Assembly (NCBI GenBank): GCA_033439295.1
Contig: JAVTLE010000007.1
Location: 1,364,001 to 1,428,000 of the forward strand
Direction: 5' to 3'
From: Deuterostichococcus epilithicus
Lineage: Eukaryota; Chlorophyta; Trebouxiophyceae; Prasiolales; Stichococcaceae
DNA: 64,000 nt
Shown here piece after piece: positions 1,880 to 11,515 of this stretch. A program made the position numbers and the translations under genes. Position 1 is the first letter of the stretch, and each line of letters opens with the position of its first letter. Below the pieces are notes generated by a model that was not told the origin of the DNA, ran no database searches, and worked only from the letters and a program-made list of their open reading frames with translations.

Positions 1880-6482
<4,603 letters not shown>

Positions 6483-6651
6483 CTTGCAGCGAGTTGCTGA
6501 GCTATTGGATGTTCGATTGGACAGCCGTGGACTGCTTTTGGCAGTGCTGAGCAGGCTCCGGAACGACCTGCACGTGCTTCCTTGTGCTTCCTGGACTCCT
6601 GGCATTGCAATGAGCTGACGTCTCAAAATCGCACTTCACGCCGTATTCGCC
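6483..6651. promoter_or_regulatory. Short divergent promoter region between DDX49 (-) and RimM/WW gene (+)
   Basis: Only about 169 bp separate the chosen start codons of two divergently transcribed genes, so both promoters and 5' UTRs must overlap here. I recognise no TATA box or named element. Confidence 0.45.
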
Positions 6652-9600
6652 ATGTCAATGATGGCAGGCCGACCGTTGCTGCTGCAGCCATTCACGTCGC
6701 TGTGCAGCATGGTCCCACTCAGACATGGCATGTGCACAGCACAAGCCGCGCAATCCGTCTCCGGCCCGCCCCGCATCCACAGCCTCGATTCCGGAAGGTA
6801 CTGCAGGCATGTTGAGGTTGCGTCCTCACTCATCAGCCCAGCAAGCTGGCAAGGCTTTGTACCAGACCAGGGCGCGGCACGCCACCCACGCCGCCAGCTT
6901 CGGCAGTCTGTCAGGGCGAGCAGCACCGGCAGGGCAGCTCAGACTTCACTTGCTTCAGGAGGAAACACAGACAAGAAGCAGCAAGGTCGCCGACGGCGGC
7001 CGCACGCGCCCGCTGAGGCGCCGCTCGCGACTGCACAGCTGGACGGCACGGCTGTGCTCAGCTGGCGGGTCATAGACGTGACCGAGGGCTGCGACATCGG
7101 CTACGTCCGGGAGGTGAGCTGCACCCTGCTGCTTCCTGCCTTTGCTTGGGCCCAAGTCATTGGCTCAGCATGGAATCAGCAGAATACAAACCCTGCTGTG
7201 GCGGCAGTGCTGCTTTTCCTAAAGCTGTGCCGGTCCACGCTTTGCAGCGCCAGCAAAGCGGCCACCACAGCACCAGACTCTCTGGGGCCGCGCGAGCATG
7301 TTAAGGCTCTACCCCCTTGCAACGCCCCAATCGCCTCGCCCTGCTTGGTATCACAATCAACTCTTCCCACGCTGATGCTGCGCATGATGACCGACAGGTT
7401 ATGCTGCCGGAGGAGGGCGTGCAGGGCGGCTACTGCCTGTTGCGGGTGCACAACGACCGGCTGGCGCAGCAGTATGCGCAGGTTGCGGCAGAAGTGCACC
7501 TGGTGCCCTTCGTCCCGCCCATTGTGCAGCGGCTGGACGCTGCTGAGCAGGTGCCGTCAAATTGCTGGCTGGCGTTGCCACCTGCAGCAGCATGGCCATG
7601 CACGCTGCAATGGAGGCCTCCAAGATATCATTCCGGCTGGTGGCCTCGGTGACATCATGGCTGCGTTTGCGGTGCTGCGAAGCACGGGCAGTCTACCGAG
7701 CTGGCAGCGGATACGCTTTAGCTGTCGGCACCTGACTTTTAAGCCTGTCCAGGGCAAAGCCATTGGGTCGAAGGCGTCTGGCAGGTCCAGCATGCCGCGC
7801 CTGCTCTGACGGAGCGGATGAACTCTGCAGGCAGTGTACATCGATCCCCCTACAGGGCTGCTGGACATCGGGCGCCGCCGCATGCTGCTCGACTACCTGC
7901 GCCCCATCTTGCAGGTGTGCCTTTCTGGGGTGAATTTTTGCAGCATGCGCGCGGCGTCCTGTCCCGAACACCTCCTGCGGCTGTTTGTGCTGGGCACGCA
8001 GCAGCGCCAGCGGAAGTAGTAGGAGATGCGTAGAGGTTTGGTATCGGCGTCGATGAAACATGGCGGAAGCCAGACCGTCCAAAGGTCACTGTGGTGTGTT
8101 TGTTGCCGACCTAGCGACTTGCAGTTAACGTCCGCACGTCTTCACTGCTTCATCAATATATTGCTCTGCAGGGCGTGGCGCAGACGAATGCAATGCGGGA
8201 GGGGTGCGACCTGGCGTACATGCCCAGCCAGAAGGCGCTACTACAGGGTGGGCATGCGGACCTCGTCCCCATAATCGAGGCCGCCGGCGGCTTTCTGGAG
8301 GTGGGGTCCCAGCCCGTGCAGACTATACAAGTTCTCTACAGCGCTGGAGCCAATTTGCTGTAGCGCTGAGGTCGCGGAGCCTCCGAGCGCATTCTTTTCG
8401 GGGCCTCTCCCTGCCGCAGCGGCAGCGTCGACGGCCGCCGGTGCGCTCGAGCAGCAATGTCGCCCTCGTCCCTGCCTTTGTAACCCGCTTCGACCTGGTC
8501 CGTGATGCACAGGTGGCGGAGGGGCTGGAGCTGCGCTCGCGACGGCGCCCCACCGGCTTTTGGGACAATGAGGACGCGCTGGACCGGGAGCTGGGCCGCT
8601 TTGTGACCGCAGCCTGGACGCAGCATTTCGTGGACGACAACGCCGCGGGGGACACCTACTTCTACAACCAGGTGCTTCCTGCTGTGGGCGCTTCCTGCTT
8701 CCGCAGCCAGGGTGGCGATGAGGGGCTGCGCAACAGCGGCCGCGCGCCCCTGTCGGCTGCGCGCCCCAAAACGTGTGTCAGTAGCACCTGCATATGTGGC
8801 TTTGGACGAAATGTCAATCGGATGACTCGGGACTCATTTTTGGACCTCGGATAGTAGGCCTGCTATGTTTGCTATAGGGCTAGGGAAACCGATGCCCTTA
8901 CACCGCTCGCCGCGGTCCCTGCTTCTGTCCTTTCTTCCTTCCTTCCTTCCTTCCTTCTTTCCTTCAAGGCCGTACAGCGGCACGGCCTGCCCCCATACGC
9001 TGCCTCGAGGAGCGCCCTACAGGCCCTTGAGGGCTGGTAAACCCACGTCGTCAGGCAAGGCGCCGCAAGTTTCAAGGGCAGAGCCAACACCTGTCAGCGG
9101 ACGGTGCGCGGCAGCTTACTGGCGACTGCGGGCAGCTGGCAGCGCTGCAGCAAAGGCCGCCTGATACAGTCGTGCAGCACGGATGCACGCCTTAATCAAC
9201 CTTACAGAGGGGTTTACCCTGGCAGAAACCTGACGGAACGCCATGCACAGGTGACGGGGGACATAATGTGGGACAAGCCTCTGGCGCCGGCGGAGGTGGA
9301 ACTGGACGATGCAGGAACCGTCATGATGCTGGAGCCGGAGGGCGCCCGCATCATGCCAAGCCGCTCCACCGTGCTCGCCGGTTCGGCTCCATCTTTCGTA
9401 TATGAGATTCTTGTTCCTTACAATATTCTGAGTTCTAATAATATTCTGAAGGAAACACCTGGGTCGTAGTGTTCGTTCCGTCTTATGCTGGTCAGAACGG
9501 TGCGGGCTCCTTTCAGCATTCTGCAATCGGCCACAGTGCCCAGCCGATCCCCCGGGCTTGGCTGTTACGGTTGCCATGGAGCATGTCTCGGTCGTGCCAC

Positions 9601-11515
9601 CTGCTCGGCCGCCTTCATTGGTCAAGCGGTGGCCACCCGGCATTCCACGGCACCCGTATCATGCTGAGCCACTACTGCGCACTGCTTTGCCCGGATGCCC
9701 TGGCAGTGCGTGCTGTACTCTGAAGCCTCAGCAGCATAGCAAGCTACTGTGCTTTGTTCTCTCACAAGCGTGGCTGAAGCACTGTCAGCAGCGTTGCCTG
9801 ACGCTTGCTGGCTGTGTGCCCTCGTTCGCTTTTAAGATCTCTGCACTGCGCCTGCAGCTGAACCTCATGCGGGGCACCAGTTTAACTTCACAACTGAAAC
9901 GCTGCGCTGCGGTTGCAGCTGGGCGTTACGACTTGCACCACGCGATCGTGTACAATGGCGGCTACCGCGCCGTTGCCGAGGAGCTGGGCCGCCGCCCGGT
10001 GCGGCCCCCTCGATACAATCCTGCGCATGCAGCCCCTGTCAAAAAGGCCTGCAGCGGCAGCACTTGCATCCGATTTGCGTGTGTCAGGCGTGTAGCGCGC
10101 ACGGGTCGAGTTCACCACACCGACGCTGCCATTCGACTTTGCGCCGCTGAAGAGCCAGCCCAAGGAGTCCGTGCGAAGGCGGCGCGGTGCTGTAGTTGGT
10201 CGTTGAGTGTTTTCCTGCTCATTGCGGCAGGCGTGGCCGAAGGAGAAGCGCGAGTTTGAGGACCCGGCGGTGCTGGGCGCCGAGCTGCGGGCTTTTGCCA
10301 AAGCGGCCGGCACCCGCGAGGACCTGCTGCCGACGGCGCGGGCGCTGCTGTCCGCCGGCCGCATGGACCTGCTGCAGGTGTCGTGATGACTGCGTGTTCT
10401 TGTGTGTGCCTGCCTGCGCAGCAACTGCGTCCTCGCAGCCTGCTGTGTTGCGCGACACCGCATTTGTCGTTGCCACCAGCCGGCATAAGGCAGCAGAGCT
10501 GGCTTTTGAAAACTGCCCTGACTGCCAGGCAACCGCTGGCGGGTGTCACTCTCCTACGTCCTTTCGTATCCTGCCACCTGCGTGCTCCGATTGTCAGCGC
10601 TGGGCTGTCTTCGCCCATCTCAGACGATGCGGCTCAACGCAGCACGCCGCACGCAGGCCATCCGCGAGTTCGGCGGCCACGGCAAGGCAGCGGCGCTCAT
10701 GAACCTGGGCACCAGCCGCCGGCCGCGGCACCACTGGCAGTGCTTCGACACCGTGGCGGAGGAGCTGCGACACTACCTGCACGCCCGCCCCGACATCCGG
10801 CAGCGCAAGCGGCTGCCCACGCACAGGCAGGGCATCCAGTTCTCTCGTCACTTCTGTACAAACTCACAAACTCTAGGCCCGCACACCGCCCAAGTCTCTG
10901 TGGTCTCATTAGCAAGAGCGCTTGCCCGCCTCACGTCGGGCTCTGCATCTGTCATCCTGAGCAAACGGCGGTTGACACTCGGATGGCAGCACCTGGGGGC
11001 CACCATCTGCGCCGGAGCTGGCTTCGCTGACCAGCCCAAACTCCCCTTTCAGGGAGCTAATGATGGACCAGCGGTACGATTTACGGTACGCAATGCAGCA
11101 GCACAGCCATGCGGCGCTGGCAGCGGCGCTGGGCGTGCAACCCAGCCATCGCGGCGGGCACAACCAGCGGCGAGCAGCCGAGCATGTCAGACCCGCCAGG
11201 CGTGTGGCCGCCGTCAGCAGCGGCAGCGGCGCCGCCGCTGCTGCTGGCATGATGGGAGCTGGAGCAGGAACATGCGCAAGCGAGCAGCCAGCAGCTGGGG
11301 AAGCCCTGCCGGGTGCGGCGGCCCGCATCGGCGACACGGCTCCTGCTGCCGGGCCTGGTGAAGCACGGCGCACTCGCGGCAAGTCCGCGGAGGCAGCGCA
11401 GCAGCCCGGCGCCGTCGGCCGGGCAGGAGGCGTGCAGGCGGCACTAGCGTGGCAATGCCGAGCGGAGCAGCCATCGAGCTTTCTGGATCAGATTGTGACA
11501 TCGTTCTCATGCTAG
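6652..11515 (+). CDS. Multidomain protein: RimM-like PRC barrel, WW domain, four repeats of an unrecognised DLxxAI module
   Basis: Ten phase-consistent exons: 6652-7113, 7398-7550, 7831-7914, 8172-8300, 8513-8671, 9251-9380, 9919-9998, 10231-10377, 10657-10826 and 11053-11515. The N-terminal 125 or so residues are low-complexity and could be a plastid transit peptide. Exons 1-3 match the RimM C-terminal PRC barrel: IGYVREV, LVPFVPPIVQRLD, then IDPPTGLLD. A module with P-x(7-8)-[GQ]-[RH]-x-DL-x3-[AI]-x3-GG, then LG, RRP and an aromatic-plus-acidic stretch recurs at about 8226, 9343, 10330 and 10814. A WW domain (AGDTYFYNQ, then VTGDIMWDKP) spans exons 5-6. The C-terminus is Ala/Gly-rich. Intron 9 appears to use a GC donor (CAG/GCAGGG), which keeps module spacing exact. 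A plastid ribosome-assembly role is inference from the RimM-like part only. Confidence 0.72.
8929..8966 (+). repeat. TTCC microsatellite in intron 5 of the RimM/WW gene
   Basis: A pyrimidine tract of about nine imperfect TTCC units lies within the 8672-9250 intron. It is a simple-sequence repeat with no sign of coding. Confidence 0.9.

Follow-up and report, generated by a model that had tools for sequence, protein, structure and literature searches.

We analysed a window of 64,000 nt from the chlorophyte Deuterostichococcus epilithicus, in which the first-pass annotation had placed a single gene at 6652–11515. Splicing by hand joined ten exons (6652–7113, 7398–7550, 7831–7914, 8172–8300, 8513–8671, 9251–9380, 9919–9998, 10231–10377, 10657–10826 and 11053–11515) into one open frame of 658 amino acids, which confirmed a single forward-strand gene with exactly these limits. 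Eight of the nine introns were GT-AG, and intron 9 (10827–11052) was GC-AG in this hand-spliced model. The GC3 of the exons was 0.68–0.96 and the GC content of the introns 0.56–0.65. Intron 5 contained a short CCTT-rich repeat at 8930–8965.

The model was made from the DNA alone, its splice sites were picked by hand, partly to hold the repeats described below in register, and at least one stop-free frame ran through five of the nine introns; these points would fit an artefact in which adjacent genes were fused by hand splicing. We regard such a fusion as very improbable, however, given the single frame across ten exons, the intron borders and the high GC3. As drawn, each of the nine joins interrupted a domain, be it the barrel, the WW domain or one of the repeats, and these domains therefore need the splices. 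Divergent from this gene, on the reverse strand at 5823–6482, lay a DEAD-box helicase (PF00270, E = 1.4e-13). Its likely ATG, at 6482, was ~170 bp from the ATG of the 658-aa gene, and because the two start codons are divergent and this close, the promoter region may be common to both genes.

From a transit-like N-terminus the protein ran through a PRC barrel of the RimM type and four repeats, one of which held a WW domain, to an Ala/Gly-rich tail. Residues 1–89 (6652–6918; like all features of the gene, on the forward strand) had the composition of an organelle-targeting sequence and ended in VRA|SS, whose VRA we take to be a transit-peptide cleavage site. The first 90 residues were rich in R (10) and S (13) and poor in acidic residues (2 D, 1 E), and they included no K. 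Judged from this N-terminus, the protein is probably imported into the plastid. The opposite end, residues 535–658 together with the stop codon (11141–11515), formed the Ala/Gly-rich tail.

The PRC barrel (residues 133–222; 7048–7881, in exons 1–3) contained the motifs LVPFVPPIV and IDPPTGLLDI. It matched PF24986 with E = 0.0021 (18.1 bits) when the whole protein was searched and with E = 1.5e-4 (21.8 bits) when searched alone, both below the cutoff of 27 bits, and it was identical to the barrel of the genome's own RimM at 16 of 35 positions. The earlier label 'RimM-like' suits the barrel, at these scores under the cutoff, but not the rest of the protein. The RimM N-terminal domain (PF01782) was absent from the Pfam matches of the 658-aa protein at E ≤ 10, and the only PF01782 match in an exon-by-exon search of the 46.8-Mb genome was on another contig (G000:C3:707953). 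The gene there (L004) was a canonical RimM with both domains (PF01782, E = 7.3e-8; PRC_RimM, E = 3e-12; hand-joined pieces). The 658-aa protein had in common with RimM a PRC barrel with the pattern LVPFV...IDPPxGLLDI, but the canonical RimM of this genome ended soon after its barrel, whereas the 658-aa protein continued into the repeats.

The proteins differed also at the start of the barrel. In the genome's RimM this start read DEFYAQDL, which aligned with DEYYWSDL of the solved RimM 2qgg; the aromatic pair was EYY in two solved RimMs and EFY in the genome's RimM. Comparison by eye showed that the pair was missing at the barrel start of the 658-aa protein, which reads TAQLDGTAVLSW. We take this pair to be the YY of the E. 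coli YY-to-AA mutant, and a contact to S19. In the excerpt of the source cited here, the YY-to-AA change in the PRC barrel domain of E. coli RimM reduces 30S binding, and the barrel of bacterial RimM is essential for the interaction with S19 (PMC9032327). With the N-terminal domain and the aromatic pair both missing, and a canonical RimM elsewhere in the genome, we rejected the idea that the gene encodes a true RimM.

Four repeats followed the barrel. Repeat 1 (residues 226–284; 7891–8536) did not have the usual GYW start, repeat 2 (residues 286–397; 8540–9992) was split by the WW domain, repeat 3 occupied residues 398–467 (9993–10713), and repeat 4 (residues 468–534; 10714–11140) was the most degenerate. 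Repeats 1, 3 and 4 thus span 59, 70 and 67 residues, and repeat 2 spans 112 with its insertion. We searched 2,220 sequences with a profile made from three repeats of a plasmid protein of the cyanobacterium Allocoleopsis franciscana PCC 7113. Results showed a match to the 658-aa protein with E = 4.5e-21 that extended over all four repeats: i-E = 0.0064 for repeat 1 (residues 249–283), 1.7e-7 and 2.2 for the two parts of repeat 2 (363–396 and 287–306), 9.5e-4 for repeat 3 (409–460) and, taken alone, 2.0 for repeat 4 (469–532), which was in register and was also placed by the repeat alignment. The best of 500 shuffled controls gave E = 1.0 and the reversed copy E = 23. Compared with the best shuffle, the match puts the repeats beyond chance, and the four modules of the first-pass annotation are present. 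The spacing of their motif had to be amended to two residues, instead of three, between DL and AI (P-x8-[GQ]-[RH]-x-DL-x2-[AI]-[IM]-x3-[GS]-[GH]).

The suggestion that these modules are novel was not borne out, because the PCC 7113 profile leads to a known repeat, the TMR (transcript-binding motif repeat). Manavski et al. in 2015 reportedly described TMR motifs in the cyanobacterial strain of the matched plasmid, under the name Microcoleus sp. PCC 7113. The profile search established that the repeats of the 658-aa protein are homologous to those of the PCC 7113 protein, which are probably TMRs. By their length, their distribution and this reported link, the four modules look like TMRs. The TMR is a helical repeat of ~70 aa by which HCF145 binds chloroplast psaA mRNA, and in the portion of the source consulted the HCF145 TMRs are said to bind a specific plastid transcript, probably guarding it against exonucleases (PMC5897788). 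HCF145 (AT5G08720) and the algal protein are alike in their tandem ~70-aa repeats, their nuclear genes and their plastid location, which for the algal protein is predicted only. In contrast, HCF145 carries two TMRs along with two SRPBCC domains, according to the same portion of that source, whereas the algal protein has one PRC barrel and four TMRs with a WW domain within repeat 2.

No Pfam or NCBIfam model picked out the TMRs in these scans, and such genes are therefore likely to stay 'hypothetical'. When single repeats were scanned against Pfam, the typed consensus repeat had no match, and DUF6525 (E = 0.054) was the sole family returned for repeat 3. Only one of ten aligned algal repeats matched any Pfam family (YdaS_toxin, E = 0.017), and none matched HNH_repeat (PF18780). 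PHROGs returned four families for these ten, each for one repeat and with E from 0.0035 to 0.41, none of them informative. An earlier hint of an ARID-like rhythm was set aside, though not excluded: there was no ARID chain among the seven PDB matches of the ten-repeat profile at E ≤ 10, and the P...DL...GG spacing of the repeats is unlike the ARID pattern.

The WW domain (PF00397; residues 310–338; 8612–9277) was interrupted by a 579-nt intron. The Pfam match was weak (E = 0.013; 15.9 bits, cutoff 26.9); both tryptophans and the YFYN core were there, and a search of PDB with the whole 658-aa sequence returned WW chains from E = 0.0021. A WW domain, though weak by score, is present, yet not between modules one and two as the first-pass annotation had it; it is inserted within repeat 2. 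There, 57 residues lay between the first-helix Phe (F306) and the Met of 'MPS' (M364), compared with ~10 in the other repeats.

A search of the genome with the typed repeat consensus revealed two further genes that carry the repeat. As read, the first (L013; G000:C14:1130700-1140600, ~2200–6790) encodes a low-molecular-weight phosphotyrosine phosphatase domain (PF01451, E = 2.8e-8 for hand-joined pieces) and four TMRs. A long Gly/Ser/Ala linker fills the repeat loop that the WW domain occupies in the 658-aa protein. The second (L012; G000:C14:2410600-2420500, ~4430–5500) is a third TMR gene, with two repeats as read. Parts of it look SRPBCC-like by eye, SRPBCC being the domain of HCF145, but the pieces scanned for it had no match in Pfam and we do not claim that domain. 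In such genome searches, L014 (E = 0.204) and L015 (E = 2.04) were read and judged to be chance matches, and one more weak match lay at C15:330250 (E = 0.556).

Among 72,556 plasmid records, the typed consensus had one match at E ≤ 1, to Allocoleopsis franciscana PCC 7113 (E = 6e-15, 47% identity). The protein, WP_015211581.1, resembles the algal protein in three TMR-like units with the pattern GYW...MP...GR.DL..AI...GG...VA..LG. It differs in that its N-terminal part consists of helix-turn-helix repeats (PF06056, PF13518) and that its gene is plasmid-borne, beside a recombinase gene. This gene (plasmid pMIC7113.04, L064, 2891–4387) is annotated as 'ATPase subunit of terminase'; its product is made up of the helix-turn-helix repeats and the three TMRs, and the annotation looks wrong. 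A plasmid search with the whole PCC 7113 protein returned itself and one Geminocystis record, at residues 1–259. The seven phage records that matched it did so only at residues 108–262, in the helix-turn-helix part, and the viral contigs gave four stretches that fitted a pattern but no relatives of the protein.

We compared the repeats with units of HNH_repeat, the repeat associated with homing endonucleases. These units were of phage, plasmid, bacterial and archaeal origin, and many of them occur in HNH proteins. With hhalign, 13 repeats aligned to 85 HNH_repeat units over their full length (50 of 54 columns, probability 90.0), and none of 400 permuted controls did; against sets of 15, 65 and 85 units the values were 80.2, 91.7 and 90.0%. 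Profile comparison of the ten algal repeats with 15 phage units gave 43.3% (36.2% in the reverse direction), and with 65 and 85 units 85.6% and 80.6%; global mode gave 37.1%. The three cyanobacterial repeats alone reached 68.6, 93.4 and 93.0% against 15, 65 and 85 units. Because Pfam was nearly silent on the repeats, the link to HNH_repeat rests on these profile comparisons, which are uneven. All algal repeats scanned fell below the PF18780 gathering score of 26 bits. The best, an 89-aa fragment of L012 (12.6 bits, E = 0.18), had HNH_repeat as its sole Pfam family, with positions 4–31 on profile positions 4–31, and two L013 fragments had no match in Pfam.

Apart from the full-length profile alignment, TMR and HNH_repeat have in common their tandem arrays and the spacing of P..E and FG[SG]W..A...G, and they differ in that the algal repeats score below the Pfam cutoff. 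The predicted fold of an HNH_repeat unit resembles TetR-type DNA-binding domains, with a Z score that may reflect a common arrangement only. We conclude that TMR and HNH_repeat probably belong to a single superfamily of small repeats that have four helices and bind nucleic acids. We also lean, if slightly, towards a wider scenario in which the core of this superfamily is a helix-turn-helix like that of TetR. In it, a DNA-reading repeat of mobile elements would have been recast in algae and plants, perhaps via cyanobacterial plasmids, as a modular repeat that reads the RNA of chloroplast mRNAs, and the 658-aa protein would have added the barrel and the WW domain in the loop as adaptors.

As to function, we consider it likely that this nuclear gene specifies an RNA-binding protein of the TMR kind that is targeted to the plastid. 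Once imported into the plastid, the protein would use its four repeats to bind a specific plastid RNA, although binding by repeat 4 would probably be weak. The first-pass annotation had suggested a plastid rRNA partner; a role with plastid RNA is supported, but an untranslated region of an mRNA seems the most likely target and 16S rRNA a less likely one. The RNA-polymerase partner that it had named as another option gained no evidence from these domain and repeat comparisons. Lacking both the N-terminal domain of RimM and the aromatics that contact S19, the barrel could act as a platform on which proteins dock. A proline-binding surface would be offered by the WW domain from the repeat loop, and this domain might recruit a processing or translation partner.

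The same domains could also make up a second, derived maturation factor for plastid 16S rRNA, specialised beside the canonical RimM, whose barrel would still bind the small subunit and whose TMRs would hold the rRNA. The C-terminal motif of the RimM-type barrel favours this, as do the need for the bacterial barrel in S19 interaction (PMC9032327) and RNA binding by TMRs (PMC5897788), both as given in excerpts of those sources. However, the RimM N-terminal domain is missing, the aromatic pair at the barrel start has no counterpart and the genome already has a canonical RimM, which together make this reading rather unlikely. We are more doubtful that the gene encodes a DNA-binding protein of the plastid nucleoid, whose repeats would retain the DNA binding expected of HNH_repeat relatives. 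The TMR–HNH_repeat similarity, the likeness of the predicted HNH_repeat unit to the TetR fold, and the helix-turn-helix repeats and adjoining recombinase gene of the cyanobacterial TMR protein point in that direction, yet HCF145, itself a TMR protein, binds RNA in the consulted part of the source (PMC5897788), and DNA binding by HNH_repeat is only presumed.

The modules of the 658-aa protein are thus known in kind, and their combination, a PRC barrel with TMRs of which one contains a WW domain, has no precedent in the literature searched. Manavski et al. are said to have noted TMRs in 'quite diverse' algal proteins, and may already list this combination. A relation between TMR and HNH_repeat was not found in the open-licence literature, a scope that does not include the original TMR paper; HCF145/TMR together with homing endonuclease brought up PMC5897788 and a citrus expression study, in the accessible text of which the terms stood apart. 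Relative to that literature, the likeness of TMR to HNH_repeat, as it appears from sequence comparison, would be a new point.

The TMR is a plastid RNA-binding repeat, beside PPR, OPR and HAT. If the link to HNH_repeat is true, the origin, the fold and a possible recognition code of the TMR become testable via abundant bacterial and archaeal relatives. The three architectures in one algal genome (with PRC and WW, with phosphatase, and the third gene) show a repeat that has been reused with varied partner domains. In the third gene, L012, the exon piece encoding LPSRADLRAA is seemingly duplicated in the next intron.
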